A DNA stretch of 33,561 bases from NCBI GenBank assembly GCA_022767445.1, contig JALENJ010000046.1, forward strand, positions 1-33,561, written 5' to 3'. Below are positions 8,108 to 33,561 of the stretch, piece after piece. The notes under the pieces were generated by a model. The model saw nothing but the letters and a program-made list of their open reading frames with translations, was not told the DNA's origin and did no database searches. The stretch is from Erysipelotrichaceae bacterium (lineage in GTDB: Bacteria > Bacillota_I > Bacilli_A > Erysipelotrichales > Erysipelotrichaceae). The translations under genes and the position numbers were made by a program. The stretch's first letter is position 1. The number at the start of each line of letters is the position of its first letter.

Positions 8108-8110
8108 ACG

Positions 8111-8133
8111 ATACCCCTGAAAAAGGGGTATTC
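8111..8133 (+). terminator. Hairpin after uvrB, probable terminator
   Basis: A perfect 8-bp stem ATACCCCT/AGGGGTAT (8111-8118 and 8124-8131) with loop GAAAA starts just after the uvrB stop. The following T-run is poor (TTCCTAT), so termination may be incomplete. Confidence 0.6.
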
Positions 8134-8198
8134 CTATAGGTAAACTATGGTATGCTTAGTGTATTGAATAGAATGAATTTACATGAAAGGTGTTGTGT

Positions 8199-11105: not shown

Positions 11106-11134
11106 TTGTAATCGGGAATATTTTCCCCTATAAT
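11106..11134 (+). promoter_or_regulatory. Promoter of the riboswitch-permease transcript
   Basis: -35 TTGTAA (11106-11111), a 17-bp spacer, and a perfect -10 TATAAT (11129-11134). The predicted start is at about 11141, just before the riboswitch. Confidence 0.8.
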
Positions 11135-11145
11135 ACCTATGTGCC

Positions 11146-11217
11146 ACATATCGTATATGCTTCCGAATTGGCGGAAGTGTCTCTACCCTGCTACCTTAAT
11201 AGCGGGACTACGGTTGT
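11146..11217 (+). promoter_or_regulatory. Purine riboswitch, guanine/hypoxanthine type
   Basis: The three-way junction can be drawn completely. P1 is ATCGTA/TACGGT (11150-11155 with 11209-11214). P2 is GCTTCCG/CGGAAGT with loop AATTGG. The core strand J2/3 is GTCTCTAC (11179-11186), against GUUUCUAC in the B. subtilis xpt aptamer. P3 is CCTGCTA/TAGCGGG with loop CCTTAA. The GG and CC of the loops can form the conserved kissing contact. The ligand-pairing position equivalent to xpt C74 is C11208 (in GACTA), which predicts guanine or hypoxanthine rather than adenine. Both loops look one base shorter than in xpt. It controls the purine permease gene just downstream. Confidence 0.92.
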
Positions 11218-11237
11218 CTCTATTCTTTTTAGTGACT

Positions 11238-11310: not shown

Positions 11311-12678
11311 ATGTTAGAGAAGTTGTTTCATTTAAAGGAAAAAGGCACAACAGTAAGAACGGAATTAGTTGCCGGTATTACTACATTCATCACAATGGTT
11401 TACATTCTTGCGCTGAATCCATCAATTCTAAGTGCTTCAGGTATGGATGCTGGTGCAATTTTGACAGCGACAGCTGTTGCGTCCGCAATCGCTTGTTTCT
11501 GTATGGCTGCTTTTGCGAATATGCCATTTGCTTTATCCGCAGGTCTTGGCTTAAATGCATATTTTGCTTACACAGTTTGTGGCGTTATGGGTTATCCTTG
11601 GCAGGTTGCTTTAACAGCAGTACTTGTTGAAGGTATTATCTTTATTATCATGTCACTCACAAATATTCGTGAGGCAATCTTCAACGCAATTCCATCTCAA
11701 TTAAAAGTGGCTGTATCTGTTGGTATTGGTTTCTTTATTGCCTTCATTGGTGTTCAGAATGCTGGTATCATCGTAGATGGCTCTACTTTAGTAAGTCTAT
11801 ATTCATTTACATCTGGATTTACGAATGGAACATTCTCATCTCAGGGTGTTGGTGTGATTCTTTGCTTGGTTGGTGTTATCGTAATTGCAGTGATGTTGAT
11901 CAAGGGTGTGAAGGGATACATGTTATGGGGTATCTTACTCACTTGGGTATTAGGTATCATCGCTCAGTTAGCAGGTATCTATGTACCAAATCCTGAACTT
12001 GGTTATTACTCTGTGATTCCTTCCGCAATTTTCTCAATGCCAAATTCTTTGGCACCTACATTCTTCCAGTTTGACTTCGAGTTTGTAGTTTCACACTTAG
12101 TAAACTTTATCATCGTTGTATTTGCGTTCTTGTTTGTAGATATCTTCGATACTTTAGGAACGGTTATTGGTTGTGCATCCAAGGCAAATATGTTGGATGA
12201 AGAAGGTAAGCTTCCTGGTATCAAGGGTGTACTATTAGCTGACGCTGTTGGTACGACAATTGGTGCTATACTTGGTACATCCACAATCACAACATTCGTT
12301 GAGTCTTCTTCTGGTATTACAGAAGGTGGTAGAACTGGTTTAACAAGTGTTACAACAGGTATTTTATTCTTGTTGGCTCTATTCTTATCACCATTGTTCT
12401 TAACAATTCCATCTTTCGCCACTGCTCCTGCATTAATCGTTGTTGGTTTCTTAATGATGCAACAGGTAACTAATATTCAATGGAATGATCTAACAAAGGC
12501 AATTCCTTGCTTCATCTGCATTACAATGATGGGCTTTGCATATTCTATCTCTGAGGGTATCTCATTTGGCTTCATCTCTTATACATTACTTCATGTAATC
12601 ACTGGTAAGTCTAAGGATATCTCTTGGTTGATGTATGTACTAACCTTCTTGTTTATTATTAAGTACTTCATTATCTAG
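11311..12678 (+). CDS. NCS2 family guanine/hypoxanthine permease (PbuG/PbuO-like)
   Basis: A 455-residue polytopic protein with 12 or more hydrophobic segments. It begins with 'KGTTVRTELVAGITTFITMVYILALNPSIL', typical of the AzgA-like branch of NCS2 (COG2252), and contains 'NMPFALSAGLGLNAYFAY', 'LFVDIFDTLGTVIGCASKA' and 'GTSTITTFVESSSGITEGGRTGL', which form the substrate-binding region. It imports purine bases by proton symport. The guanine-type riboswitch and terminator upstream support guanine/hypoxanthine rather than adenine as substrate. The start at 11311 follows AGGGGG. It is a single-gene transcript ending in its own terminator. Confidence 0.94.
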   Translation: MLEKLFHLKEKGTTVRTELVAGITTFITMVYILALNPSILSASGMDAGAILTATAVASAIACFCMAAFANMPFALSAGLGLNAYFAYTVCGVMGYPWQVALTAVLVEGIIFIIMSLTNIREAIFNAIPSQLKVAVSVGIGFFIAFIGVQNAGIIVDGSTLVSLYSFTSGFTNGTFSSQGVGVILCLVGVIVIAVMLIKGVKGYMLWGILLTWVLGIIAQLAGIYVPNPELGYYSVIPSAIFSMPNSLAPTFFQFDFEFVVSHLVNFIIVVFAFLFVDIFDTLGTVIGCASKANMLDEEGKLPGIKGVLLADAVGTTIGAILGTSTITTFVESSSGITEGGRTGLTSVTTGILFLLALFLSPLFLTIPSFATAPALIVVGFLMMQQVTNIQWNDLTKAIPCFICITMMGFAYSISEGISFGFISYTLLHVITGKSKDISWLMYVLTFLFIIKYFII

Positions 12679-12686
12679 AATGTTTC

Positions 12687-12710
12687 GGTGCGCTAGTCGC
12701 ACCTTTTTTT
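12687..12710 (+). terminator. Terminator of the purine permease gene
   Basis: A perfect 6-bp stem GGTGCG/CGCACC with loop CTAGT is followed by seven T. Confidence 0.92.
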
Positions 12711-12739
12711 AGTTTATAATAGTGAGGTGAGGTAAACGT

Positions 12740-13642
12740 ATGATTTATACTTTAACACTAAATCCTTCATTGGATTATATCGTACAGTTGGATGAATTAA
12801 AGCTTGGTGATTTGAATCGTTCCATCTTTGAAAGAATTGAAGTAGGTGGAAAAGGTATCAATGTGTCCATTGCTTTGAAGCATCTAGGTAGAATCAGTAC
12901 ACCTTTGGGATTTGTGGAAGGTTTTACTGGTGATGAGATTGAAAAAAGAGTAAGAGCAGAGGGTCTGATTCCTGATTTTGTGAAATTAGAGAATGGAGAT
13001 TCACGCATCAACATCAAACTTAAAAGTAGTGAAGAAACAGAGATTAATGCATGTGGACCTTCCATTGAAGAAGATGACTTTAACAAGCTATATGTAAAGT
13101 TAGAACATCTTGTAAAAGGGGATATCCTGATCATGTCTGGTAGTCTATACAATGGCGCAAGTGAAACAGTATATGCGGATATCATGAAGTATTTAGAAGG
13201 CCGTGGGATACGTATGATTGTGGATGCCAAGGGTACTGTCTTAAAGTATGTGCTTACGTATAAACCATATTTAATCAAGCCAAACCTACAGGAGTTATCT
13301 GCTTTATTTGATACAGAAATCAACACAGATGAAGTGATTGATTATGCAAGAAAGCTAGTGGATATGGGTGTTGAAAATGTTCTTGTATCAATGGGCAGTG
13401 ATGGTGCAGCACTTGTTAACCAAAGTAGTAATGTATGTAAGGCGACAAGTGGACAAGTATTAAATTCTGCAGGTGCAGGTGATGCGATGTTGGCTGCCTT
13501 TATCGCTAGTAAGTTAGATGGTGAATCTGATGGTATTGCCCTTAAGAGAGCAGTCGCTATGGGGAGCGCGACAGCTTTCTCCTATGGAATCGCTAGTAAA
13601 GAAGCTGCAGATTTAATCTATGCAAGCATGGAAGGGAAGTAA
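12740..13642 (+). CDS. fruK: 1-phosphofructokinase (PfkB family)
   Basis: A 300-residue ribokinase-fold sugar-phosphate kinase. It starts MIYTLTLNPSLDYIVQLDEL, has the N-terminal PfkB signature 'GGKGINVSIALKHLG' (about residues 36-50), the family stretch 'LIMSGSLYNGA', and the C-terminal signature 'LNSAGAGDAMLAAFIAS' (about 242-258) with the catalytic Asp. FruK phosphorylates fructose-1-phosphate to fructose-1,6-bisphosphate; tagatose-6-phosphate kinase (LacC) is the close alternative. No fructose PTS or FruR gene is next to it, which is unusual for fruK. A GAGGTGAGG ribosome site precedes the ATG, and TATAAT at 12715-12720 may be its -10. Its stop is 1 bp before the next gene. Confidence 0.85.
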   Translation: MIYTLTLNPSLDYIVQLDELKLGDLNRSIFERIEVGGKGINVSIALKHLGRISTPLGFVEGFTGDEIEKRVRAEGLIPDFVKLENGDSRINIKLKSSEETEINACGPSIEEDDFNKLYVKLEHLVKGDILIMSGSLYNGASETVYADIMKYLEGRGIRMIVDAKGTVLKYVLTYKPYLIKPNLQELSALFDTEINTDEVIDYARKLVDMGVENVLVSMGSDGAALVNQSSNVCKATSGQVLNSAGAGDAMLAAFIASKLDGESDGIALKRAVAMGSATAFSYGIASKEAADLIYASMEGK

Positions 13643-13643
13643 G

Positions 13644-14816
13644 ATGGATTTTCAAGATTATTTTTATAAACATCCTTATACAAAGGAATTAGATACAGAA
13701 GTTATCAGTTGTATTCAAAATGGTGATCACTATGATGTTGTCTTAAAGAATACAATCTTTTATCCAGAAGGTGGTGGACAACCGAGTGATCAAGGTTTCA
13801 TCCAAGAGTTAGAAGTATTCGATGTACAACGCAAAGAGGATGTAGTCGTTCATACAGTTGCACAACCCCTACAACCAGGTAGCGTTGTACATATCAAGAT
13901 TGATTGGGAGTATCGCTTTGATATGATGCAAAATCATACTGCTGAACATATCTTTTCTGGTGTTGTTCATCAGCGATATCATTTGGATAATGTAGGTTTT
14001 CATATGAGTGAGTATGCTTGTTGCGACTTTAATGGAGAGCTATCACCACAACAAATCCGAACTGTAGAAAAGAGTGTTAACCAAGCAATCTGGCAGAATC
14101 TACCAGTCAAAGAGATGGAATGTAATCAAGATGAGGTTGGCCAATATACCTATCGTTCTAAGAAGGAAATTGAAGGCATGACAAGAATCGTATCGGTTGA
14201 TGGATATGATAGTTGTGCATGTTGTGGTATGCATGTTTTATCGACTGGTGAGATAGGTATATGTAAAGTAGTCGATTATGAAGTATCCAACAATCATACA
14301 CGTGTATGGTTAGTGAGTGGTCGTAAAGCTTTCGTCTATCTTTCCAACCTCCAACAACAAAATCAAGCTTTATCACATTTATTATCCGCACCTCCACTAC
14401 AGATTGAAAGTGCGGTAGAACAATTAATCCAAAAGCGAGATCACTGGAAACAGGAATATGAGATGCTTGCTAAGTCAACGACGATGGCTCAAATTGAACA
14501 GATTGAGATGACGGATGGCATCTTATTCTTATCCATCCTTGAACAACCCGATATATTACGTGCCATCTGTAATGCATGTATCAGAAAGGGTGCTAAGATT
14601 GTGATTGCCATCGGCGTAAATGATACTGCTTACAACTACGTCATGATGAGCAAAGAAATCAACTTGAAAGAGATTGCCAATTCATTTAATGAACTTGTTT
14701 ATGGCAAAGGTGGCGGTAATGAACAGATGATTCAGGGTAGTTGTCAGGGTATGCCAGAAGAGATTGTTGATGCGATTGAGCAATTAACCCAAATTACAAT
14801 GACAATCCAACCGTAG
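13644..14816 (+). CDS. Alanyl-tRNA editing protein (AlaX, long form)
   Basis: A 390-residue protein related to the editing half of alanyl-tRNA synthetase. It has the N-terminal 'YPEGGGQPSDQG' motif (about residues 35-46), the zinc motif HTAEH (H98, H102), the second metal motif 'SCACCGMH' (about 190-197), and a C-terminal DHHA1-like segment with 'GKGGGNEQMIQGSCQG' near residues 353-368. This is the AlaX-L type, which hydrolyses Ser- or Gly-mischarged tRNA-Ala. The start at 13644 follows the fruK stop by 1 bp with GGAAGGGAAG as ribosome site; the upstream in-frame ATG at 13620 lies inside fruK. Its pairing with a fructose kinase has no obvious functional logic. Confidence 0.88.
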   Translation: MDFQDYFYKHPYTKELDTEVISCIQNGDHYDVVLKNTIFYPEGGGQPSDQGFIQELEVFDVQRKEDVVVHTVAQPLQPGSVVHIKIDWEYRFDMMQNHTAEHIFSGVVHQRYHLDNVGFHMSEYACCDFNGELSPQQIRTVEKSVNQAIWQNLPVKEMECNQDEVGQYTYRSKKEIEGMTRIVSVDGYDSCACCGMHVLSTGEIGICKVVDYEVSNNHTRVWLVSGRKAFVYLSNLQQQNQALSHLLSAPPLQIESAVEQLIQKRDHWKQEYEMLAKSTTMAQIEQIEMTDGILFLSILEQPDILRAICNACIRKGAKIVIAIGVNDTAYNYVMMSKEINLKEIANSFNELVYGKGGGNEQMIQGSCQGMPEEIVDAIEQLTQITMTIQP

Positions 14817-14887: not shown

Positions 14888-15634
14888 ATGAAACTTGTTT
14901 TAATTAGACATGGTGAAAGTGAATGGAACAAACTCAACTTATTTACAGGTTGGACAGACGTTGAACTTTCCGAAAAAGGTGTTGAGGAAGCGAAGGCTGG
15001 CGGACGTGCTTTAAAGGAAGCTGGTTATGATTTCGATCTTTGCTACACATCTTATCTAAAGCGTGCAATTCATACATTGAACTTTGTATTAGCTGAAATG
15101 GATCGTGAATGGTTGCCAGTCACAAAGACTTGGAAGCTCAATGAAAGACACTACGGTGCTTTACAGGGCTTAAATAAAGCTGAAACAGCTGAGAAGTATG
15201 GTGAAGAGAAGGTTAAGATCTGGAGAAGATCATTTGATGTACAACCTCCAGCATTAGACCCATCTGATGATAGAAATCCAGCTCTACAGGAAGCTTACCG
15301 CAACGAAAACAAGGATGAACTTCCTTTGGCTGAGTCATTAAAGGATACAATTGCTCGTGCAGTTCCTTACTATGAACAAGAAATCTTACCTAAGATGAAG
15401 GAAGGCAAGCGCGTTATCATCGCTGCTCATGGTAACAGCTTACGTGCTCTTGTTAAGTACTTTGAGAACTTAACAGATGAAGAGATCATCGGCGTAAATA
15501 TTCCTACAGGTGTTCCACTCGTTTATACATTTGACGACAATGGAAAGTTCATCTCTAAGGAATACTTAGGCGACCAAGCTGCGATTGAAGCTAAGATGGC
15601 TGCAGTTGCGAAACAAGGTAGCGTTAAGAAATAA
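14888..15634 (+). CDS. gpmA: 2,3-bisphosphoglycerate-dependent phosphoglycerate mutase
   Basis: A 248-residue histidine phosphatase-fold enzyme of glycolysis that interconverts 3- and 2-phosphoglycerate. It shows the phospho-histidine motif [10 protein letters not shown] (His at residue 8 or 9), '[13 protein letters not shown]', '[15 protein letters not shown]' with the catalytic Glu, and the second His in '[12 protein letters not shown]' (about residue 181). Length matches the family. It has its own strong promoter, a GGAG site, and a terminator 3 bp after the stop, so it is monocistronic. Confidence 0.97.
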
Positions 15635-15637
15635 GTT

Positions 15638-15661
15638 AAAAGAGTCCGCGTGACTCTTTTT
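15638..15661 (+). terminator. Terminator of gpmA
   Basis: AAAAGAGTC pairs with GACTCTTTT around the loop CGCGT and runs into a T-tract. It sits directly after the gpmA stop and may also serve the convergent operon. Confidence 0.9.
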
Positions 15662-15667
15662 GTTATG

Positions 15668-15695
15668 AAAAATACTATCGCTTAAGCGATAGTAT
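15668..15695 (-). terminator. Terminator of the thrC-thrB-ACT operon
   Basis: A perfect 10-bp palindrome (ATACTATCGC/GCGATAGTAT, arms 15672-15681 and 15686-15695, loop TTAA) is followed on the minus strand by TTTTC. The stop codon of the leftward gene is the loop itself, so the terminator overlaps the gene end. Confidence 0.85.
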
Positions 15696-16122
15696 CAATC
15701 TGAACTTTACGTACACAATCATGGTTACTCAATAACTGAACTAGTGTATCAACCGTCACATTCATATCAGAGATATCCAAACTGATTAATACGGATGCGT
15801 ATCCATCTACTGGGATGGATTGAGAAATGGTTAAGATACTAGAGTGGTATTCACTCAGTGTCTTAAGTACAGTTGTTAGTGCTCCACTTTTATCTTTTAA
15901 AATAATCGAAAGTGTTAGAGTACGTGTTGTTGTGTCGTTGCTGATTTCAAATACATAATCCTTGTAACGATAGTAGGTATTTCTTGAGATACCTGCTTTT
16001 TTGACTGCTTCTGTAACTGTTTCTACTTCATGGTTATCTAGTAGCTTGCGAGCTTGAATCACCTGATAGAAGTAAGTAGGTAATATCTTCTTATGGACAA
16101 TTAAATAATCGGAGTCTTTCAT
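15682..16122 (-). CDS. ACT/HTH protein, UPF0735 (PheB/ThrR family)
   Basis: A 146-residue protein starting MKDSDYLIVHKKILPTYF, the standard beginning of UPF0735. A helix-turn-helix-like stretch 'TVTEAVKKAGISRNTYYRYKDYVF' (about residues 33-56) precedes a C-terminal ACT domain (about 67-140, 'TLSIILKDKSGALTTVLKTL'), the fold that usually binds an amino acid. The start at 16122 has GAGG upstream and is 1 bp past the thrB stop; the upstream frame overlaps thrB and is rejected. B. subtilis PheB belongs here, and from memory the threonine repressor ThrR is this family. Position as third gene of thrC-thrB makes a threonine-responsive regulator of the divergon the best guess. Confidence 0.82.
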   Translation of the reverse strand: MKDSDYLIVHKKILPTYFYQVIQARKLLDNHEVETVTEAVKKAGISRNTYYRYKDYVFEISNDTTTRTLTLSIILKDKSGALTTVLKTLSEYHSSILTISQSIPVDGYASVLISLDISDMNVTVDTLVQLLSNHDCVRKVQIDTIA

Positions 16123-16123
16123 A

Positions 16124-16996
16124 TTAACCTCGTATTTCACTACCTGCATTTGCGACTTGAAGTGGTAGCACGTTCCACTTATGTGGTAATCTGGCAATTT
16201 GTTGAATCGCTGCAGGACTTAACTCATTTTTAGCGATGCATAAGCAAGTTGGTCCTGATCCACTGATGAGAAGTACACCAGATGTATCATTCGTGACGAT
16301 ATTCTTTAACGTATCAAAATCATGAATCAAAGTCTTACGATATGGTTCGTGGATGCGATCGTTACTAGAGACTTTTAAGAGTCGTAGGTTACCTTCTTGC
16401 AGTGCCTGTGATGTAAGGATGGCACTAGCGATATTGTGTGCAACATCACTTCTTTGATATGTATTTGGTAGGATATTTCTTGCTTGGTTGGTATTGACTG
16501 TAAATTCTGGTATGAGTGCAGTAAACTTCCAGGATGAATCTAATGTTAGTGACTTTATGATACTGGTTGTATCATCTAGTTTCATACTAGAGCAGTATCC
16601 TCCATGCAAGCATGGAGCAACATTATCTGGATGTCCTTCGATGGAAGCTGCGATTTGAAATATCTGTTCTTCGCTAAGCGCTTCATCATGAAGGATGCTA
16701 GCCGCAATGACACCAGCTGTGATGAATGATGCACTACTGCCAAGTCCACGTGATATTGGAATTTGTGTATCAAAGATCACGTGGATAGGAGTATATGTAC
16801 CTATCTTTTGACAAGCAATTTTATATGCTTGTAAGAATAAGTTATCTTCGTTGTTGTAAGCTTCATCAATATTTTCTAGTTTTATTTCTGTACTTTTTTC
16901 AACTTGGAAGCTATTGTATAGGTTGAAGGCAATGCCTAATGTATCAAAACCTGCTCCTAGGTTTGCGGATGTGGCTGGGGTTTTAATTGTGTACAT
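16124..16996 (-). CDS. thrB: Homoserine kinase
   Basis: A 290-residue GHMP kinase that phosphorylates homoserine with ATP, the penultimate step to threonine. It begins 'MYTIKTPATSANLGAGFDTLGIAFNLYN' and has the GHMP phosphate-binding loop 'PISRGLGSSASFITAGV' (about residues 85-101), 'GHPDNVAPCLHGGYC' near residue 133, and the C-terminal 'GVLLISGSGPTCLCIA' near residue 240. Its start overlaps the end of thrC by 14 bp, and the ACT/HTH gene follows after 1 bp, so all three are one transcript. Confidence 0.96.
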   Translation of the reverse strand: MYTIKTPATSANLGAGFDTLGIAFNLYNSFQVEKSTEIKLENIDEAYNNEDNLFLQAYKIACQKIGTYTPIHVIFDTQIPISRGLGSSASFITAGVIAASILHDEALSEEQIFQIAASIEGHPDNVAPCLHGGYCSSMKLDDTTSIIKSLTLDSSWKFTALIPEFTVNTNQARNILPNTYQRSDVAHNIASAILTSQALQEGNLRLLKVSSNDRIHEPYRKTLIHDFDTLKNIVTNDTSGVLLISGSGPTCLCIAKNELSPAAIQQIARLPHKWNVLPLQVANAGSEIRG

Positions 16997-18470
16997 GATT
17001 TAATTCCTTCATGTGTTGTTGGATGGTTTGTATCGCATCTTGTTTGTCGATTACTTTGTTGAATCGATTTGGTAGGCTTTCTAATACACTTAGGTTATGT
17101 GGAATTGGTGTATTGGTGTATGTATGCAGTGCTTGCATAGCCTGAAAGCCTGTTTCAATCGATTCGTTTGTAATCGATTGATAGACATCCTGTGGGAATT
17201 TATATGCACTGGCAGTGGATAAGATAATACATGGGATATCTTTTTCTATCTGCTGATGTTGTCTGCATGCACCTAATGCGACTGCAGTATGTGGATCAAT
17301 TAAGATGTTTTGATTGTGATAGGTATCATGTATGACTTGTTTACATGTATCTTCATCACAATCATATGCAGTGAATGTCTGTTGGAGTTTGTCTAAAATA
17401 GAGGATGGAATTGTGTATTCACCTTTCTTTTTTAGATCCGTCATACAGGAGTTGATGAGTTTATCGTTGTGATCACTTAACATAAATAGCAGTCTTTCAA
17501 GATTGCTGGAGACTAGGATATCCATGGAAGGTGAAATCGTAGGGATAAACTTACGATTGGCATTATATACTCCTGTACGTATGAATTCTGTAAGTACATT
17601 GTTGGAATTGGATGCACAGATTAGTTTATTAATTGGTAGGCCTATTTGTTTGGCAATATACCCTGCAAGTATATTGCCGAAGTTACCACTTGGCACAACA
17701 AAGTTAACTGGGTCATATATTGTTATTTCTTTGCGAATGACTAGTTTTTGATAAGCAAAGAAATAATAGACTACCTGTGGTAAGAGTCTGCCAATGTTAA
17801 TAGAGTTGGCAGATGAGAGTTTGATATTTTTGCATGCATGTAGGATGTCTTGGTTTGTGATTGCCTGTTTAACGATGCGTTGGCAATCATCGAAGTTGCC
17901 TTTGATGGCGATAACTTCGACATTATATCCTATGGATGTTTGCATTTGTTTCTTTTGGATATCAGATACACCAACTTCTGGATATAGCACTGTGATAGCG
18001 GTATTTGCGACATTGCTAAAACCGTTGATGGCTGCCTTTCCTGTATCGCCACTGGTAGCGGTGAGGATGGAGATGAGTTTGTCTTCGTTTTGTTTGCTGT
18101 AGGCAGCTTTCATCAGATGTGGTAGTAGTGTGAGTGCCATGTCCTTGAATGCACTGGTTGGCCCATGCCATAGCTCTAATAGCCAGCCTTCATCACACTT
18201 TGTTAAAGGTGTGATGTCCTCATTGTCAAATGAGGATTGATAGGCGTTGGTAATGCACTCATGTATTTCATCCTGACTGAAATCATCGATCAAAGTTGAG
18301 AGAATATACGTAGCTAGGCTGATATAGTCCATGTTGATAATCTTATTTAGATCAATTGTTTGATAGTTTGTTTCGGGAGTATAGAGTCCACCATCATTTG
18401 CCAGTCCATCGATGACTGCTTGAGTAAAGGTGGTGGTGTTTTTCTGATTTCGTGTGCTGATATATTTCAT
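16983..18470 (-). CDS. thrC: Threonine synthase
   Basis: A 495-residue PLP enzyme converting O-phosphohomoserine to threonine. It is the long form (E. coli and yeast type), starting 'MKYISTRNQKNTTTFTQAVIDGLANDGGLYTPE'. The PLP lysine is in 'GPTSAFKDMALTLLPHLM' (about residue 106), followed by 'ILTATSGDTGKAAINGFS' and 'NFVVPSGNFGNILAGYIAKQIGLPI' (about 255-280). This differs from the roughly 350-residue ThrC of Bacillus. GAAGGAG precedes the start. It is the first gene of the leftward threonine operon and faces hom across a 90-bp divergent promoter. Confidence 0.96.
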   Translation of the reverse strand: MKYISTRNQKNTTTFTQAVIDGLANDGGLYTPETNYQTIDLNKIINMDYISLATYILSTLIDDFSQDEIHECITNAYQSSFDNEDITPLTKCDEGWLLELWHGPTSAFKDMALTLLPHLMKAAYSKQNEDKLISILTATSGDTGKAAINGFSNVANTAITVLYPEVGVSDIQKKQMQTSIGYNVEVIAIKGNFDDCQRIVKQAITNQDILHACKNIKLSSANSINIGRLLPQVVYYFFAYQKLVIRKEITIYDPVNFVVPSGNFGNILAGYIAKQIGLPINKLICASNSNNVLTEFIRTGVYNANRKFIPTISPSMDILVSSNLERLLFMLSDHNDKLINSCMTDLKKKGEYTIPSSILDKLQQTFTAYDCDEDTCKQVIHDTYHNQNILIDPHTAVALGACRQHQQIEKDIPCIILSTASAYKFPQDVYQSITNESIETGFQAMQALHTYTNTPIPHNLSVLESLPNRFNKVIDKQDAIQTIQQHMKELNHVHN

Positions 18471-26745: not shown

Positions 26746-27147
26746 ATGGCAACTAAGAAGAAAGTAACTTATGTTGGAACAGGACGCCGTAAGCAGTCTG
26801 TTGCTCGTGTCTTCATGACTCCGGGTACAGGTGTTGTAACAGTTAATGGTCGTTCTTTAGAAGAATACCTACCACAAGCTACATTGCGCATGGTAGTTAA
26901 CTCACCATTAGTGCTTACAGAAACAAAAGAGCAGTTTGATATTAAGATCAACGTAGCAGGTGGCGGATACACAGGACAAGCTGGTGCAATGCGTCATGGT
27001 ATTGCTAGAGCTCTTCTAGAAGCTTCTGCTGACTACAGACCAGCATTAAAGAAGGCTGGTTTCCTAACACGTGATTCCCGTGAGAAGGAAAGAAAGAAGT
27101 ACGGTCTCAAAGCAGCTCGTCGCGCACCGCAGTTCAGCAAGCGTTAA
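26746..27147 (+). CDS. rpsI: Ribosomal protein uS9
   Basis: A 133-residue 30S protein with '[35 protein letters not shown]', '[26 protein letters not shown]' in its family form, and the basic tail '[24 protein letters not shown]' that ends in the SKR touching P-site tRNA. The sequence and its 3' end are intact. The conjugative element begins a few hundred bases downstream; 3' ends of rpsI are known integration sites for some ICEs. Confidence 0.97.
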
Positions 27148-27169
27148 TCGAGACTTGGAAGACTCAAAA

Positions 27170-27203
27170 AACCTCGGAAAATCAATGGTTTCCGGGGTTT
27201 TTT
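27170..27203 (+). terminator. Terminator of rplM-rpsI
   Basis: An 11-bp stem AACCTCGGAAA/TTTCCGGGGTT (one T-G wobble) with loop ATCAATGG, followed by six T. Confidence 0.93.
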
Positions 27204-27462
27204 CATGCTCAAAAGTTCTGGTATCGTTTATCCCAATTTGGCATTTTTTGATGTAAAAAATGGCGTGAGCAAGTGGTCCAACAGCTATTTTTGACCCCAA
27301 AATGTGAGCAGAGTGGTCCAAATCGTAGGTGATCCAGAGTTAAAATTCAATAGGATTTCAAACTTCAGAGTTTGATTTTGGGGAAAACTTTTACATCCGA
27401 TTTAACTTTGTCACAGTTTGTTCTAATACGATATCTGTTTGAAATAAATATGAACTTACATA
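27204..27462. other. Noncoding junction between rpsI and the ICE
   Basis: AT-rich noncoding sequence with no convincing ORF on either strand. It contains a pair of direct repeats at 27265-27321 and a possible promoter (TTTAAC 27401-27406, 17 bp, TAATAC 27424-27429) ahead of the ICE leader. The left attachment site of the element should lie here or at the rpsI 3' end, but it cannot be located without the other end. Confidence 0.6.
27265..27321 (+). repeat. Direct repeat pair GTGAGCA(G)AGTGGTCCAA
   Basis: Copy 1 at 27265-27281 and copy 2 at 27304-27321 are identical except for one extra G, with starts 39 bp apart. Each is followed by A/T-rich sequence. Tandem, direct terminal repeats of this sort occur at ends of IS21-type elements, but no transposase gene is nearby, so the identity is open. 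Confidence 0.6.
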
Positions 27463-27512
27463 GAGCGTCAGCTCATTCTTTAAAGTTGAAGAATGAGTTG
27501 GCGCTCTTTTTT
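27463..27512 (+). terminator. Strong terminator/attenuator before the first ICE gene
   Basis: An 18-bp stem (27463-27480 with 27489-27506, two wobble pairs) with an 8-nt loop TAAAGTTG is followed by six T. It stands between the probable promoter and the first ICE gene with no gene upstream to end, so it probably attenuates ICE transcription. It may alternatively just insulate the ICE from host readthrough. Confidence 0.75.
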
Positions 27513-27538
27513 GTTTCCGGAAAAGGAACGGAAACAAA
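27510..27538 (+). repeat. Perfect 10-bp hairpin in the ICE leader
   Basis: TTTGTTTCCG (27510-27519) and CGGAAACAAA (27529-27538) form a perfect inverted repeat with loop GAAAAGGAA. It begins within the terminator's T-run and ends 14 bp before the AGGAGGT ribosome site. It could be an operator or an RNA element that competes with the terminator. Confidence 0.65.
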
Positions 27539-27566
27539 TGAAATTCAAAAACAGGAGGTTAATTAA

Positions 27567-28610
27567 ATGATGGATTTCAATGAGTTCACAGAAAAGTTGG
27601 AGTATAACTTGAAGGTTGCACTGGAGGACGGTCCGCCGGGTGCTCATGTGCAGAAGCAGGAAGTGGAAAAGATGCAGGGGCAGTCCTATACGGCACTGAC
27701 TGTGACGCCGGCAGACAGAAATGTTGGAATGAACATCAATGCAAATGCCCTGTATGAACAGATGCAGTACGGAGCCAGTTACCAGAACGTACTCTCCCAT
27801 GCATTGAATCAAGCCACGGCATTTGTACAGGATTCTCCTCAGTTTGATGTGCATACCATCACAAATTATGAGCAGACAAAAACGAAGCTGTTTGTAGAGG
27901 TGGTGGGGGCGGAGAGAAATGCAGCCATGCTGAAAAAACTTCCTCATGTACAAATGGAAGACATGGCAATGGTGTATCGCATTCAGGTTGCAGAGAAAGA
28001 TGGAGCGATTGCCAGCACACTGATTTCCAATCAGCTGATGGATGCCATGGGAGTTACGGCAGAGAAGCTGTATCAGGATGCGATTGCTAATTCTGTTAAT
28101 ATGCGACCGGCAAAGGTACAGAAGCTTTCAGAAGTCCTTGCTGAAATGATGGATGTACCTGTAGAAACGGTGGAAAAGTCTGCGCCGCCATTATTGGTTG
28201 TAACAACGGAAGATAAAATCAAAGGGGCTTGTGCAATGTTTTATCCGGAAATGATGGATCAGCTTGCTAAAGAAACCGGTGGCGATTTCTTTATTCTTCC
28301 TTCATCCGTTCACGAAGTTTTAGTGATGCCGGATAAGGGAGAGATGAGTGCCGAGGAACTTAAGGATATGGTCACAGCCATCAATGGCGATGTAGTCGAT
28401 CCTGCGGATGTGCTTACCGATCAGGTCTATCACTATGATGCGAAGGAACGAATCTTTGAGCGTGGGGATAAGTTTGAAGCAAGACAGGCAGATAAAGAGA
28501 GAGAAGGAGATAGATCTTCTGTACTCCAAGATTTAAAGAATAAGCAGAAAGATATTCCGTTTGTTACAAGGGGATCTGATTTAAAGAGTAAAGCTGATAT
28601 GGAGCTGTAA
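27567..28610 (+). CDS. DUF5688 family protein
   Basis: A 347-residue cytoplasmic protein without signal or membrane segments. It starts 'MMDFNEFTEKLEYNLKVAL', contains 'YTALTVTPADRNVGMNINANALYEQMQYG' (about residues 39-68), 'LPHVQMEDMAMVYRI' (about 124-139) and 'DFFILPSSVHEVLVMPD' (about 240-256), all in the style of DUF5688 proteins of Lachnospiraceae and Ruminococcaceae mobile elements. Their function is unknown. The C-terminus (about 305-347) is charged and likely disordered. The AGGAGGT site is 7 bp before the ATG. It is the first ICE gene, behind the attenuator-like hairpin, so it may be the most tightly regulated one. Confidence 0.72.
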   Translation: MMDFNEFTEKLEYNLKVALEDGPPGAHVQKQEVEKMQGQSYTALTVTPADRNVGMNINANALYEQMQYGASYQNVLSHALNQATAFVQDSPQFDVHTITNYEQTKTKLFVEVVGAERNAAMLKKLPHVQMEDMAMVYRIQVAEKDGAIASTLISNQLMDAMGVTAEKLYQDAIANSVNMRPAKVQKLSEVLAEMMDVPVETVEKSAPPLLVVTTEDKIKGACAMFYPEMMDQLAKETGGDFFILPSSVHEVLVMPDKGEMSAEELKDMVTAINGDVVDPADVLTDQVYHYDAKERIFERGDKFEARQADKEREGDRSSVLQDLKNKQKDIPFVTRGSDLKSKADMEL

Positions 28611-28629
28611 GAAAGTTGAGGTGAGGAGA

Positions 28630-28815
28630 ATGAAATATTTTATGACAGGTCGTTTGGCAGCCTATGAACGTATGATGCAGGATAACGGTGAGAGGTATGG
28701 CGGCGGAAATGCAGATGGTGCAAAGACAGGAAAAGATCAAGCTGTCCAGAAAGACAGGGCTGCTCATCGCGATGCAGTAAAGGCCGGTGACATCTATGCC
28801 CGTCATCAGAGTTGA
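28630..28815 (+). CDS. Small conserved-type ICE protein
   Basis: A 61-residue hydrophilic protein, 'MKYFMTGRLAAYERMMQD...' then charged K/D/A sequence. Small proteins beginning with a similar M-TGRLA-YERMM pattern are, as I recall, common at this place in clostridial ICEs; function unknown. GAGGTGAGGAGA precedes the ATG at 28630; a GTG at 28621 in the same frame is an alternative. It overlaps the next gene by 20 bp. Confidence 0.6.
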   Translation: MKYFMTGRLAAYERMMQDNGERYGGGNADGAKTGKDQAVQKDRAAHRDAVKAGDIYARHQS

Positions 28816-29470
28816 AAAGAATAAGGGTTTCACCACCATCTGCAACATTCCATTGAAAGATAGCACATTGAGCCTTCGGGCTAAGGGACTTCTTGCCATG
28901 TGTATCAGTTTTCCGGACAGCTGGAATTACAGCGTGAATGGTCTTGCAGCCATTTGTGTAGAGGGTCGAGATGCCATTATGACGATACTTCGTGAACTGG
29001 AAGAACATGGGTATCTTACTCGAACCAGAGAGAGGCTTCCGTCAGGGCAGCTGGGTACAGTGGAATATGTGATCCATGAAGTCCCGCCTAAGTCGGATTC
29101 TCCTACTGTGGTAAAGCCAACACAGGAAGCTCCAATATTGGCTGAGCCTGCGTTGGAGGAGGCGACACAATTAAGTACTAATGAATTAAAGAAAGAAGAG
29201 ATAAAAGAAACAAAGAATAAAGAGATACGCCACAAACATGGTGTGTATGGAAATGTGCTGCTATCGGAGGAAGAGCTTGGCAGGCTTCAATCGGAATTTC
29301 CCTATGACTATGAAGAACGTATCGAGCGTCTTTCGGAATATATGGCTTCTACAGGTAAATCTTATAAAAATCATCTGGCCACTATTCGTAACTGGGCAAG
29401 AAGAGAGAAACCGCAAAAGCAGACATATAGTCCCTCAATGTATGAATTTAAGGAGGGTGAAAGCCTATGA
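28796..29470 (+). CDS. Winged-helix replication protein (phage-replisome-organiser-like)
   Basis: A 224-residue protein. The N-terminal half (about residues 1-95) is a winged helix: 'FTTICNIPLKDSTLSLRAKGLLAMCISFPDSWNYSVNGLAAICVEGRDAIMTILRELEEHGYL'. This matches the replication-initiator/DnaD-like HTH proteins of Bacillota ICEs and phages. A linker rich in P, E, K and T (about 100-150) leads to a C-terminal part, 'LSEEELGRLQSEFPYDYEERIERLSEYMASTGKSYKNHLATIRNWARRE', resembling DUF6017/DnaB-2-like tails. The DnaC-like loader directly follows with a 4-bp overlap, so the two probably form the ICE's autonomous replication module. ATG 28796 is preferred over GTG 28787, though no ribosome site is strong. 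Confidence 0.78.
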   Translation: MPVIRVEKNKGFTTICNIPLKDSTLSLRAKGLLAMCISFPDSWNYSVNGLAAICVEGRDAIMTILRELEEHGYLTRTRERLPSGQLGTVEYVIHEVPPKSDSPTVVKPTQEAPILAEPALEEATQLSTNELKKEEIKETKNKEIRHKHGVYGNVLLSEEELGRLQSEFPYDYEERIERLSEYMASTGKSYKNHLATIRNWARREKPQKQTYSPSMYEFKEGESL

Positions 29471-30312
29471 GTGAAAAAGTAGGAGATTTCATTGATTCAT
29501 TTATATCCAAGATGAATGACCGGAGAGAGGTTAAAGAGAACGAGTATCTTGGAGAAAATGGATTGATTCATTGCAGCAAGTGTCATACACCTTTGCAGTG
29601 CCGTATCAGTCTTAATGGAAAAGATACGGTTGTCAGTTGTATCTGTAAATGTAGGCAGGAGGAAATGGAAAGGGAGAAGAAAGGGCAGGAAGAGGAGGAG
29701 CGCCTTCGCAGAATCCAGAAACTTAAAGCGAATGGTATTCAAGAAAAGCATCTTTTAGAATGGCGATTTGATGTTGCAGAGAATAGCAAGGATATCCAGA
29801 TAGGAAAACGCTATGTGAAAAATTGGAAGAAGGTCAGGGGAGACAACCTTGGCCTTTTGTTATGGGGAGAAGTAGGAAGCGGGAAGTCATTTCTTGCTGC
29901 CTGTATCGCCAATGCACTATTGGAACAGGGGATCCCCGTACTGATGACTAATTTTTCAAAAATATTGAATCAGATGGGAGCAATGTATTCGGAGGAAAGA
30001 TACCAGTATATTGCTTCCTTTTCTAATTTTCCGCTTCTTATCATTGATGACTTGGGGATTGAACGCAGTACGGAATATGCACTGGAGCAAGTATATGCAG
30101 TGATTGATGAGCGTTATAAATCAGGACTTCCTCTTATTATCACAACGAATCTAACGATTGCAGAGATGAGAAACCCATCTGATGTTCCTCATGCTCGTAT
30201 TTACAGTCGCATTTTAGAGATGTGTACGCCATTGAATATCAGTGGAGGAGACCGCAGAAAGGGAATCAGCCGTTCAAAGACAGACACGATAAAGGAGGTA
30301 CTGGAGCTGTGA
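29467..30312 (+). CDS. DnaC/IstB-like helicase loader ATPase
   Basis: A 281-residue AAA+ protein. The N-terminal region (about residues 35-62) has a cysteine cluster, 'CSKCHTPLQC...CICKC', probably zinc-binding, then a charged coiled stretch (about 62-85). The ATPase core has Walker A 'GEVGSGKSF' (about residue 138), Walker B 'LLIIDDLG' (about 190-197), sensor 'LPLIITTNLT' (about 220-229) and an Arg finger region 'RIYSRILEMC' (about 244-253). DnaC-type proteins load the replicative helicase. IstB proteins share the fold, but no IstA is beside it and the replication-protein neighbour favours a loader. The ATG overlaps the previous stop by 4 bp and has an AAGGAGG site. Confidence 0.88.
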   Translation: MSEKVGDFIDSFISKMNDRREVKENEYLGENGLIHCSKCHTPLQCRISLNGKDTVVSCICKCRQEEMEREKKGQEEEERLRRIQKLKANGIQEKHLLEWRFDVAENSKDIQIGKRYVKNWKKVRGDNLGLLLWGEVGSGKSFLAACIANALLEQGIPVLMTNFSKILNQMGAMYSEERYQYIASFSNFPLLIIDDLGIERSTEYALEQVYAVIDERYKSGLPLIITTNLTIAEMRNPSDVPHARIYSRILEMCTPLNISGGDRRKGISRSKTDTIKEVLEL

Positions 30313-30455
30313 AGCGTAAACATAAGCATACTTGCAGGTTTTGGGAAGATGAAAACGACATTTATAGACATAGGGAGGAGGTGAAGAAGAGGTATGGCAA
30401 AAACAAAAGCTACAGAAAGTCAAAAAAATGGATCAGTCGAAGACGCTGCGGTTAA
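30309..30455 (+). CDS. Possible small basic protein overlapping ParB
   Basis: A GTG-start ORF of 48 codons, product 'VKRKHKHTCRFWEDENDIY...', strongly basic with two cysteines. The GTG overlaps the loader stop by 4 bp (GTGA) and has AAAGGAGG about 10 bp upstream, and the last 62 bp overlap parB in another frame. The strong ribosome site and coupling suggest it is translated, but overlap and length keep confidence moderate. It may only serve to carry ribosomes into parB. Confidence 0.45.
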   Translation: MKRKHKHTCRFWEDENDIYRHREEVKKRYGKNKSYRKSKKWISRRRCG

Positions 30456-31308
30456 TATTGAACACCTGGACTTAAAGCTGTCAGAATTACATCCCTTTGA
30501 AGGGCACCCGTTTAAGGTATTGGATGACGAGTTGATGGAACAGACAGTGGAGAGTATCAAGCAAATCGGGATACTTGAACCGCTGGTTGTAAGACCTGAT
30601 ACGGATGGCGGATATGAAGTGATTTCCGGTCACAGACGACTTCGGGCTGCGTACCTTGCAGGACTTGAGACTGTGCCGGTGCAAGTAAGGAATCTGGACG
30701 ATGATCAAGCTGTGATATTCATGGTGGATTCCAACATCCAGAGAGAGACAATTCTTCCCAGTGAAAGGGCATATGCTTACAAGATGAAGCTGGAGGCGAT
30801 GAATCATCAAGGGGAGAGGCGAGACTTAACTTATTCCCAACTTGGGAACAAGTTAGATGGGAAAAAATCTAGTGAAATTATGGCAGAGGAAATAGGGACA
30901 AGTAAGAACCAGATTTTTCGATATATCCGTCTTACCAATTTGATTCCAGAAATCTTAGACCAGGTGGATGAGGGGAAAATCAAGTTCAATCCGGCTGTGG
31001 AATTGTCTTATCTGAAACCGGATGAACAGAAAGTATTTCTGGAAGCGATGGATTATGCCCAGACAACGCCATCGCTGTCACAGGCTCAGCGCATAAAGAA
31101 TATGAGCCGGGAAGGTATCTGCAATTTGGAGGCCATGTGCGATGTAATGAATGAAATCAAGAAGGATGATATGACAAAGGTTACTTTGGATCATGCGACG
31201 ATCCGAAAATATTTTCCGAAGTCCTATACACCGAAGCAGATGCAGGACACAATCATTCGTCTGCTTGATCAGTGGCAGAAGAAGCGGCAACGAGATATAG
31301 AACGATAA
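30394..31308 (+). CDS. ParB/RepB/Spo0J family partition protein
   Basis: A 304-residue ParB-type protein. After a short variable N-terminus, the ParB N domain (about residues 27-125) shows 'LSELHPFEGHPFKVLDDELMEQTVESIKQIGILEPLVVRPDTDGGYEVISGHRRLRAAYLAG', and then 'MVDSNIQRETILPSERAYAYKMKLEAM' (about 110-136). The HTH region follows: 'SSEIMAEEIGTSKNQIFRYIRLTNLIPEILDQV' (about 162-195). The CTP-binding box reads GHRRLRA where chromosomal ParB has GERRxRA. No ParA gene is adjacent. It probably stabilises the excised circle or regulates ICE genes. A GGAGGTG site lies before the ATG. Confidence 0.9.
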   Translation: MAKTKATESQKNGSVEDAAVNIEHLDLKLSELHPFEGHPFKVLDDELMEQTVESIKQIGILEPLVVRPDTDGGYEVISGHRRLRAAYLAGLETVPVQVRNLDDDQAVIFMVDSNIQRETILPSERAYAYKMKLEAMNHQGERRDLTYSQLGNKLDGKKSSEIMAEEIGTSKNQIFRYIRLTNLIPEILDQVDEGKIKFNPAVELSYLKPDEQKVFLEAMDYAQTTPSLSQAQRIKNMSREGICNLEAMCDVMNEIKKDDMTKVTLDHATIRKYFPKSYTPKQMQDTIIRLLDQWQKKRQRDIER

Positions 31309-31325
31309 AAATGGAGGAACTGAGA

Positions 31326-31859
31326 ATGCAGAAAAAGATGAATATGGGTAACACTTTTGAGAAATGTAGAATATGTGATTGTGAGAAAAATACTCTTACT
31401 GCTGCGGATAATGCGATGAAAGTGATTGAGATAAGTGAAGACCTTATCAGAAGTGTTTTGGTGGATCTGCTTGACGCTTCTCGCTTGCTTGTACTTGAAA
31501 AAATTGAGAAAACAGCGTTTGAAGAAAAAATCGCAGTCATGATCGTCATGGATAGGGAGGGTGATTTCTTGGTTATTACAGAAGATGAAGTGGAAGAAAA
31601 ATATCCGGATAAGGAGTTTTCTGAAGTTGCAGTAATTTCTGACGGACAGCTGATTGCAGCCTTTGATCCGGATGATGTAGTCACTCTTGGGGATGCAGAT
31701 TATTTGATCGGACCGATGCTGATTTATGAAATTGATGAGAATGGAAACGACGTGGATATTGATAAAGACACCATTGGCTGTGCAGTTGATTATGCGTTTT
31801 GTAATGAGGTGGAGATTTGCGTGGATGATCAAAATATCCCGGCATTTCGTCTGATATAA
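31326..31859 (+). CDS. Highly acidic ICE protein of unknown function
   Basis: I do not recognise a family. The 177-residue product has about 42 Asp/Glu against 16 Lys/Arg, a strong negative charge. A short N-terminal Cys cluster 'KCRICDCEK' (about residues 13-21) may bind metal; the rest is alternating hydrophobic and acidic segments such as 'EEKIAVMIVMDREGDFLVITEDEVEEKYPDK'. There are no membrane segments. The start at 31326 follows GGAGG by 8 bp; earlier in-frame starts precede that site. Its place next to the DpnD/DUF3846 fusion, and its charge, raise the idea of a DNA mimic or antirestriction protein, which is speculation. Confidence 0.7.
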   Translation: MQKKMNMGNTFEKCRICDCEKNTLTAADNAMKVIEISEDLIRSVLVDLLDASRLLVLEKIEKTAFEEKIAVMIVMDREGDFLVITEDEVEEKYPDKEFSEVAVISDGQLIAAFDPDDVVTLGDADYLIGPMLIYEIDENGNDVDIDKDTIGCAVDYAFCNEVEICVDDQNIPAFRLI

Positions 31860-31868
31860 GGAGGAGCC

Positions 31869-32882
31869 ATGAAGGAATATGATGTGATGATTAAAGAAAC
31901 ACTTCAGAGAAAAGTAACTGTGGAGGCGAAGTTGCGGTATGAAGCAGAACAGATGGTGACGGATGCCTGGAATCATCAGGATTATGTTCTTGGGGCAGAG
32001 GATTTTACCGAAGTTTCTTTTGATACGGTGGAGGAACGGGAGTGTTCTATGCCAAAAGAGAAAATCAAGGTGCTGCTTGTACGACCGAATGCATATCCGG
32101 AAAAGGTTTCGATTGGTACAGAGCTGGAAGATTTGCAGAAGGCAGTAGGCGGATATATTGAGGTCACTTATCCATTTTCGGAAGAGGTTGGACTTGTTAT
32201 GAATGAGGAAGGAAAGCTAAATGGATTGTCACTTAACCGTGCGCTCCGCAGCGAAGATGGGGATGTGTACGATGTAATTGCAGGAGACTTTCTTGTTGTG
32301 GGTCTGACGGACGAAAACTTTGGTTCTTTGACACCAGAGCAGATGGATAAATTTGAGGCTATGTTTCATCAACCGGAGATGTTTGCAAAAATGGGGCGTA
32401 GCGTGATGGCCATTCCACTTACGGATGATCAGGTGGAACAGCCATCTGATTCATCGGTACAGGAAGAAGTGAAGACAGTCCCATTGAATTGGGAGTTTGG
32501 GGAAGAAACGGTATCTCTAAATGTGGCAGATTATGCCTACGGCGGTGGACTCTATATTGGCATCACCAGCTATGGAGAAGACGGTCCTGAGCCGTTTGCA
32601 GATATGACGGTGAATCTTCCGGCTTATACGCTTAAACCCAATGAAGCTTTTATTTCCGATGATATGAGCAGAGATCTTCTGAACTTCATCCAGGAAAATA
32701 AGCTGGGTGAAATCCTTTCATTTGAAGGAAAGTCAGGCTATGGCAGTTATAAGGCAGTGGCTTTTGATATGGAGAAGCTTAAAGAATTTGATCCAAAAGG
32801 AGTATCCAAATTCATGAAGGATCATGGAATGCCTGAAAAGACCGAACCGGCAAAGAAGAAAAACAAAGATATGGAGAGATAA
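31869..32882 (+). CDS. Fusion protein: DpnD/PcfM + DUF3846 + DUF4313
   Basis: A 337-residue protein in three parts. Residues 1-50 ('MKEYDVMIKETLQRKVTVEA...AEQMVTDAW') match the DpnD/PcfM small-protein type. About 63-180 ('KIKVLLVRPNAYPEKVSIGTELEDLQKAVGGYIEVTYPF') match DUF3846. About 205-315 ('VPLNWEFGEETVSLNVADYAYGGGLYIGITSYGEDGPEPFADMTVNLP') match DUF4313. A charged Lys-rich tail ends it. Each part is common, usually as separate proteins, in Bacillota phages and conjugative elements; none has a firm function, and the assignment rests on remembered family patterns. The ATG follows AAGGAGGAG. It leads into PcfB. Confidence 0.75.
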   Translation: MKEYDVMIKETLQRKVTVEAKLRYEAEQMVTDAWNHQDYVLGAEDFTEVSFDTVEERECSMPKEKIKVLLVRPNAYPEKVSIGTELEDLQKAVGGYIEVTYPFSEEVGLVMNEEGKLNGLSLNRALRSEDGDVYDVIAGDFLVVGLTDENFGSLTPEQMDKFEAMFHQPEMFAKMGRSVMAIPLTDDQVEQPSDSSVQEEVKTVPLNWEFGEETVSLNVADYAYGGGLYIGITSYGEDGPEPFADMTVNLPAYTLKPNEAFISDDMSRDLLNFIQENKLGEILSFEGKSGYGSYKAVAFDMEKLKEFDPKGVSKFMKDHGMPEKTEPAKKKNKDMER

Positions 32883-32915
32883 GCGCCACTAATTGAATAC
32901 GGAAGGAGGGTACAG

Positions 32916-33407
32916 ATGCAGGAAGAAATTGAAAACAGAACCGTCCATTTGGTAGTCAGTACAACAAAGCTATCTGCGAGAACGATCATTCGTGGCTTCC
33001 AGCTGTGGAAGGCTCACCATGAAAAGGCAAAAGCAAAGAACGCTGCTGTCAAAAATCTGCCAGCACATGGCAAACAGAGCATTAAGGAACTGATCGGTCA
33101 GAACCAGGGAGTGACTAATATTGACATCTCCAAGACGGATTTAAAAGGCTTTGAACAGGTGGCTCGTAAATATGGTGTGGACTATGCCATTACGAAAGAT
33201 AAGGGAGTGATTCCGCCAAAGTATATGGTGTTTTTTAAAGCTAGAGATGCAGATGCTCTTACCGCCGCATTTACAGAGTTTAGTAATCAGAAAATGAAAA
33301 GGCTGGAGAAACCGAGCGTACTCAAGCAGCTTGCGAAGCTGAAAGAAATGGTGGCAGCCATTATGCCGGATAAGATTCGTTATAAGAGTCAGGAGCGTGA
33401 TCTATGA
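32916..33407 (+). CDS. PcfB family protein (DUF3801)
   Basis: A 163-residue conjugation accessory protein. It begins 'MQEEIENRTVHLVVSTTKLSARTIIRGFQLW', the PcfB start, and has 'GKQSIKELIGQNQGVTNIDISKTDLKGFEQVARKYGVDYAITKDK' (about residues 50-95) and 'YMVFFKARDADALTAAFTEF'. PcfB is named from the pCF10 transfer region, where it precedes the coupling protein PcfC. Here too a VirD4-type gene follows with a 4-bp overlap. A GGAGGG ribosome site precedes the ATG. Confidence 0.9.
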   Translation: MQEEIENRTVHLVVSTTKLSARTIIRGFQLWKAHHEKAKAKNAAVKNLPAHGKQSIKELIGQNQGVTNIDISKTDLKGFEQVARKYGVDYAITKDKGVIPPKYMVFFKARDADALTAAFTEFSNQKMKRLEKPSVLKQLAKLKEMVAAIMPDKIRYKSQERDL

Positions 33408-33561
33408 GAAATAAGACGAGAAAGCTTTTGATTCTGAGTCTGCCATATATCTTGTTAAGCCTATTTGCTACGAATTTGGCAGAAGCGTGGAGAATTGCTG
33501 AGGGGATGAATATGTCAGCCAGGATACTTTCTTTTATGACAATGATTGGCATAGCATTCCA
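33404..33561 (+). CDS. VirD4/TraG-type coupling protein, N-terminus (cut by window)
   Basis: The first 52 codons are visible: 'MRNKTRKLLILSLPYILLS' then a hydrophobic segment, a short polar loop 'NLAEAWRIAEGMN' and the start of a second hydrophobic segment. This is the N-terminal membrane region of VirD4/TraG-family coupling proteins, which carry the relaxosome to the mating pore. Its ATPase motifs lie beyond the window. The 4-bp overlap with PcfB and the family context are the evidence; the fragment alone would not be enough. Confidence 0.8.
   Translation, partial: MRNKTRKLLILSLPYILLSLFATNLAEAWRIAEGMNMSARILSFMTMIGIAF

Follow-up and report, generated by a model that had tools for sequence, protein, structure and literature searches.

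A terminator hairpin conserved before DUF5688 genes as a possible transcription gate of Tn1549-type conjugation operons

The DNA analyzed here, referred to as the window, is a 33,561-nt stretch of a contig from an Erysipelotrichaceae bacterium (JALENJ010000046.1, assembly GCA_022767445.1), the last part of which is occupied by a conjugative element situated directly behind the host gene rpsI (Table 1). From its domain content, the run of genes from DUF5688 to DUF3801 appears to be the front of a conjugation operon. The product of the first gene yields a good AlphaFold model (pLDDT 88), for which Foldseek returned no significant relative among solved folds; on the same result, the idea that DUF5688 could be recognized from its fold as binding RNA was dropped. 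Elsewhere in the window, the sole match at an Rfam gathering score is a purine riboswitch (RF00167, 63 bits) at 11131-11230, upstream of a permease-like gene (11311-12678).

Table 1. Features around the left end of the element in the window
Feature	Position	Strand	Evidence
rpsI (ribosomal protein S9), host gene, co-directional, directly upstream of element	26746-27147	+	ORF; same gene upstream of Oribacterium copy
rpsI intrinsic terminator, retained after insertion	27166-27203	+	fold, -18.4 kcal/mol
T2, predicted intrinsic terminator	stem 27462-27507, U-run 27507-27512	+	folds, terminator scan, covariation in relatives
10-bp hairpin in the place of P3 of related leaders, GACG loop absent	27510-27538	+	folds, inverted repeats, match to covariance model R1
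Ribosome binding site, AGGAGGT	27553-27559	+	sequence; predicted mostly unpaired
First gene, DUF5688 family	27567-28610	+	PF18941, E 6.5e-84
HTH_36 protein, probable replication initiator	28787-29470	+	domain match
DnaC/IstB-like ATPase	29467-30312	+	domain match
ParB-like protein	30394-31308	+	domain match
DpnD-PcfM/DUF3846/DUF4313 protein	31869-32882	+	domain match
DUF3801 (PcfB-type) conjugation protein	32916-33407	+	domain match

An earlier, sequence-only reading of this region had stated that no gene of the element lies upstream for a terminator to act upon; the host gene rpsI is in fact directly upstream on the same strand, though it has a terminator of its own, as does rpsI of uninserted relatives. 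Operons with rpsI are, in general, strongly expressed. Positions 27200-33561 share 98% identity with an element of Oribacterium sp. oral taxon 078 (L036), which likewise lies directly behind rpsI, and the start of this near-identity places the junction in or just after the rpsI terminator, at about 27174-27209. The rpsI genes of the two hosts are clearly different, unlike the near-identical elements, and since the near-identity starts in or just after the rpsI terminator, the end of rpsI serves as the insertion site. The presence of elements of 98% identity behind the same gene in distantly related hosts implies that transfer between them was recent. Between the element end and the leader hairpins, AGTGGTCCAA occurs twice in the window (27272-27281 and 27312-27321, 40 bp apart). 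The Oribacterium element additionally carries two large serine recombinase genes (7239-9077 and 15091-17010), one of which adjoins a split VirD4 gene, and genes for an XhoI-type restriction endonuclease and a DNA methylase near the recombinases.

Two hairpins precede the first gene of the element. The upstream structure, T2, has a stem of 21 pairs including G-U pairs closed by a 4-nt loop, a predicted energy of -32.8 kcal/mol and a z-score of -7.9, with 0 of 200 shuffled sequences folding equally well, and it is followed by the run TTTTTT. The sequence-only reading had described this as an 18-bp terminator stem with a T-run at 27463-27512; the terminator itself was borne out (27462-27512), the stem length having been undercounted. 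The perfect 10-bp hairpin that it reported next is present as described, with arms at 27510-27519 and 27529-27538, a 9-nt loop and a weaker fold (-12.4 kcal/mol, z -3.0), and so is the ribosome binding site following the two hairpins. T2 ends 54 nt before the start codon. The minus strand of the hairpin region also folds stably.

The same reading had proposed that the two hairpins could exclude each other and that the first transcript is controlled by antitermination or by sensing of translation or a ligand. However, the T2 stem ends at 27507 and the second hairpin begins at 27510, so that no base is common to both stems, and the energy of the joint fold (-45.2 kcal/mol) is the sum of the two separate values; T2 and the second hairpin are not ALTERNATIVES and fold side by side. 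Furthermore, the second hairpin is transcribed after the release point and therefore cannot serve as an antiterminator of T2. Pairing of the region 27301-27461 to the 5′ arm of T2 was no better than that of shuffled sequences (35% of shuffles were as strong), and in the relatives upstream pairing to this arm was likewise at chance level. An open frame at 27451-27566 that ends at the gene start was considered as a leader peptide and rejected, as both the frames and the stops differ in relatives. Sensing of a ligand or of translation is not supported, because mutual exclusion, an antiterminator pairing, a conserved leader peptide and, in the window hairpin, the GACG loop described below were all absent.

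DUF5688 genes are common, being found in 45 of 100 genomes of the host genus and order and in 186 of 200 from the Oribacterium family. Most of them lack the leader described here, and a subset shares one upstream plan, located at the head of Tn1549-type conjugation operons and mostly before the DUF5688 gene. In these relatives the leader, usually ∼190 nt long, consists of an extended -10 promoter, a hairpin (H1) with a U-run, a small A-U hairpin (P2; UUCUUUUGCARAAGAA), T2 and a further hairpin (P3), in that order, and is followed by a ribosome binding site and DUF5688. The extended -10 elements are TGTGATATATT, TGTTATATT, TGTGATAATATTAT and similar sequences. H1 starts at about the expected transcript start and runs directly into UUUUCUUUUGC; in each of the 18 distinct relatives that were examined it forms beside a U-run (z -1.4 to -7.7). 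The T2 consensus is AGCGUC...GGCGCU-UUUUU, and P3, in many relatives, is a short hairpin with the loop GACG, which is missing in several others. A pseudoknot between CGUC in the 5′ arm of T2 and the GACG loop was rejected, since GACG is present but CGUC missing in L151 and L152, and the converse holds for many relatives. In six elements (L034, L043, L045, L047, L044, and L040) the leader promoter is preceded by short direct repeats, three to five per element and spaced about 11 bp apart. Their sequence differs by element (e.g., ACTAACGA, AATTACCTAT, CGATACCAAA, and TGTAGAGG), and they probably form an array to which a regulator specific to each element binds. In two members an XRE-type gene separates the leader from DUF5688, and in another (L175, G681:C7) the leader is followed by a serine recombinase gene instead of DUF5688. 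At one locus (L205, G063:C4 74500-91000) three leader copies lie in a stretch of 11 kb, some of them followed by broken DUF5688 genes; these are remnants of nested elements.

Conservation of the leader was assessed with a covariance model (R1) built from the leaders of eight relatives, the window being excluded. R1 matched the window at 27432-27552 on the plus strand (37.2 bits, E 1.2e-4 in 120 kb), and a scan of the whole Oribacterium genome recovered the copy there (E 0.0028). In the eight leaders, standard pairs fill 95% of the cells versus 40-51% when the partners are slid, and two-sided changes occur in 15 pairs, against 8.2 ± 1.8 in shuffles, none of 500 of which reached this count; such changes affect 11 of the 18 pairs in T2 and three of four in P3. 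An alignment of 27 distinct rows gave 94% paired, with two-sided changes at 13/18 pairs of T2 and 4/4 of P3, and with U-G as the commonest pair type at several T2 columns; this alignment was fitted to the structure, and more weight is therefore given to the eight-leader test and the blind matches. Members were detected by R1 in 24 of 397 genomes from the Oribacterium family, the weakest (G673) being probably due to chance, and a search of 245 genomes from the whole class found no member beyond one already known. In the host order, model R2 detected, besides the window, G063 (with three copies) and G065, together with a marginal match in G138 that is probably due to chance. All leader-bearing genes fall into one clade of the DUF5688 protein tree (support 0.994). 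By comparison, one clade of elements is shown to retain a predicted terminator hairpin ahead of DUF5688.

The alternative raised at the outset, that the hairpin is a simple boundary terminator whose stem is not kept in related elements, was countered by T2, which is retained at the same place and covaries. Covariation had been looked for in both stems: it is evident for T2, and for the second hairpin it is seen in the P3 of relatives, but the window hairpin at that place is without the GACG loop. The covariation of T2 at the same place in relatives makes control of the first transcript at the RNA level likely for the family, as the sequence-only reading had suggested, although not through attenuation by exclusive hairpins. 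Covariation of a terminator arises for its own sake, however, and that of T2 alone is therefore no proof of regulation.

The window and Oribacterium pair form the deepest branch of the leader-bearing clade in the protein tree. The window copy shares with the family T2, which immediately precedes the first gene and has the AGCGUC sequence in its 5′ arm, and the DUF5688 gene context. It has no recognizable H1, the best terminator-like hairpin in 27301-27462 reaching only -1.2 kcal/mol; no -10 element of the TGTGNTATATT type was seen by eye, and none was detected by a promoter scan. The hairpin at P3's place has a different loop, and no repeat array was found upstream of the leader in this copy. 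Two further members of the clade, L048 and L053, have a strong but diverged terminator directly before DUF5688. As the window copy, L048 and L053 all keep a terminator at this position, the terminator is the part that persists. The window copy is thus an early-branching member of the leader family that has retained T2, and any regulated readthrough there is putative.

T2 is not the only terminator of these operons. A second strong terminator was detected within about 50 nt after DUF5688 in nine of 10 intact leader-bearing genes versus four of 30 genes without the leader (Fisher p 2e-5; 7/8 after deduplication, p 2e-4), often with the AGCGUCAG...CUGGCGCU consensus of T2. In L180, whose co-directional run is DUF5688, RepA_N/DUF6017, DUF3801, VirD4, TrbL_2, PrgI, a TraG-like ATPase, NlpC/P60, a CD1107-like protein and the relaxase, a further terminator lies between VirD4 (CD1115 family) and TrbL. 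Counts of sense and antisense terminators across elements were 6/7, 7/0, 7/4, 8/8, 6/3, and 7/2; the sense orientation is not always in excess (6/7 in L177, 8/8 in L182). In the window copy gene 1 is not followed by a terminator, and the 6 kb of operon on the contig (27.6-33.6 kb) contain none that is strong. In L177, VirD4 is interrupted by a reverse transcriptase gene of group II intron-like type (6481-8385), and a gene at 11733-13649, with a leader hairpin of its own at 11661-11693, encodes an EF-G-like protein of the type that gives tetracycline resistance by ribosomal protection.

Terminators located behind the promoter and between essential genes mean that such an operon could not be expressed unless termination were overcome, and internal terminators together with a conserved RNA at the operon start constitute the anatomy of processive antitermination. 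The explanation favored here, with a probability of about 60%, is that T2 is a transcription gate heading a Tn1549-type conjugation operon, which combines an insulator with processive antitermination. Polymerases entering from host genes, in this case the rplM-rpsI operon, or from spurious starts would stop at T2, which would keep the replication and transfer genes of the integrated element silent. Polymerases from the element's own promoter would become terminator-resistant and pass T2 as well as the terminators beyond it, including the one that follows gene 1, the resistance being conferred by the leader RNA itself and/or by an element factor, for which DUF5688 would be a candidate solely by position. 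We infer the stopping of transcription at T2 in the cell, the threat from rpsI read-through and the resistance of polymerase via leader or factor. For the window copy the insulator role is the better grounded half; antitermination is extrapolated from the relatives, and this copy may have lost or replaced it. Insulation with processive antitermination fits the data better than sensing of a ligand or of translation. A reading that goes further, possible but less likely than not, is a new system of processive antitermination, made up of the leader RNA (H1-P2-T2-P3) by itself or acting together with DUF5688, which would license the conjugation operons of a widespread clade of Tn1549-type ICEs, the window copy being an early-branching form.

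The most serious competitor, rather unlikely overall, is that T2 is only an insulator that blocks rpsI read-through and transcriptional noise, the element's promoter for gene 1 lying elsewhere (for example, on the circular form or downstream of T2) and regulated antitermination playing no part. The window suits this explanation, having T2 but no recognizable H1, promoter or GACG loop, and terminators are found at the left end of Tn916-like elements (PMC11658703). In the relatives, however, the terminator sits downstream of a conserved promoter of the element, and P3 covaries though it is no terminator; neither would be needed for a boundary signal. The position behind rpsI, a strong co-directional operon, is in keeping with an insulator. 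An activity of the Q/AlpA type, in which an element protein bound to the ∼11-bp-spaced repeats would load onto polymerase and take it through T1 and T2, with the RNA structure serving as no more than a terminator, is improbable. It would account for the element-specific repeats that most relatives have just ahead of the extended -10 promoter and for their two terminators within about 120 nt, and AlpA acts in this manner at a promoter-linked site (PMC9371919), but it leaves the covarying P3 hairpin with its GACG loop unexplained and the array is absent from the window.

Slightly less probable again is a classical attenuator, in which the leader would switch between terminator and antiterminator folds in response to a ligand, uncharged tRNA, ribosome stalling or a bound protein. 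In its favor, a leader with conserved structure separates the promoter from the first gene, and the small invariant-loop hairpin near the ribosome site in many relatives resembles a protein site. The compatibility of the second hairpin with T2, after which it is made, argues against it, as do the failure to find an upstream segment competing for the 5′ arm of T2 or a conserved leader peptide, and the leader matches no Rfam riboswitch, T-box or leader. There is very little reason to expect that the hairpins function at the DNA level, for example in a single-strand origin or a nick-site region close to the end of the element: ICEs need such origins, large hairpins form on single strands and the minus strand is also able to fold, but the polarity of the U-run, the G-U pairs throughout, the constant placement of the hairpins between promoter and ribosome site and the repetition of the terminator after gene 1 all point to RNA.

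Gating of conjugation genes by terminators has precedents, with which the proposed gate can be compared. In Tn916, a strong terminator, T1, lies between the left end and the first gene, overlapping the orf24 start codon, and a cis-acting RNA, canT, overcomes T1-T3, Porf7 and canT being brought round from the other end after excision (PMC11658703). The window terminator similarly lies between the element end and the first gene, co-directional with an active host gene, and the window's relatives have more terminators inside the operon. In contrast to Tn916, however, the element belongs to a different family, with a DUF5688/RepA_N/CD1115-type operon; the terminators of the relatives are directly behind the element's own promoter; and T2 ends well before the start codon that T1 overlaps. 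The conAn system of pLS20-type conjugation operons comprises the ConAn1 protein and the conAn2 RNA (PMC8955417). It shares with the relatives described here the anatomy of a long conjugation operon that begins with an RNA element and has multiple intrinsic terminators, and differs in that the leader here precedes gene 1. R1 gave nothing significant in the 15-30 kb stretch of pLS20 that was searched (best E 1.1), and to our knowledge DUF5688 is not a recognized relative of ConAn1.

A leader hairpin and leader terminator before a long operon in Bacillota are also features of LoaP regulation, the RNA hairpin of which has a UNCG loop (PMC12691694). The loop of the small hairpin is GACG in the relatives or GAAAAGGAA in the window, UNCG was found in none of the window hairpins, and no NusG-like domain was detected among the element proteins scanned. 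The EAR (eps) and HK022 put RNAs are said to make polymerase terminator-resistant (PMC11658703, PMC8955417) and are alike in linking RNA structures to terminator resistance; unlike these, the leader has no Rfam match and heads another type of operon. Searches of Rfam 15 gave no match to the leader at the gathering score and none beyond chance at a relaxed E-value. Exact leader patterns were not found in IMG/VR, where a 16-mer from the promoter/H1 region of relatives gave 78 matches to AT-rich viral contigs that were taken as chance, and blastn of the leader against plasmids and phages returned weak, chance-like matches only. The open-access literature searched contained no mention of DUF5688 and no paper on the leader family. 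The leader of DUF5688 operons therefore appears to be a previously undescribed RNA family, outside Rfam. A terminator-gated ICE operon is a known principle, within which the leader family is new.

Tn1549-type conjugative elements are known for carrying resistance genes. If the proposed explanation is true, these elements would control their transfer by a terminator that acts as a gate and by an RNA able to open it. Control by terminator and antiterminator is known from Tn916 (2024) and from plasmids, as in conAn, and the elements described here would represent a third family. The covarying, alignable leader may provide a concrete RNA candidate for the switching on of these elements, as well as a marker for finding them.
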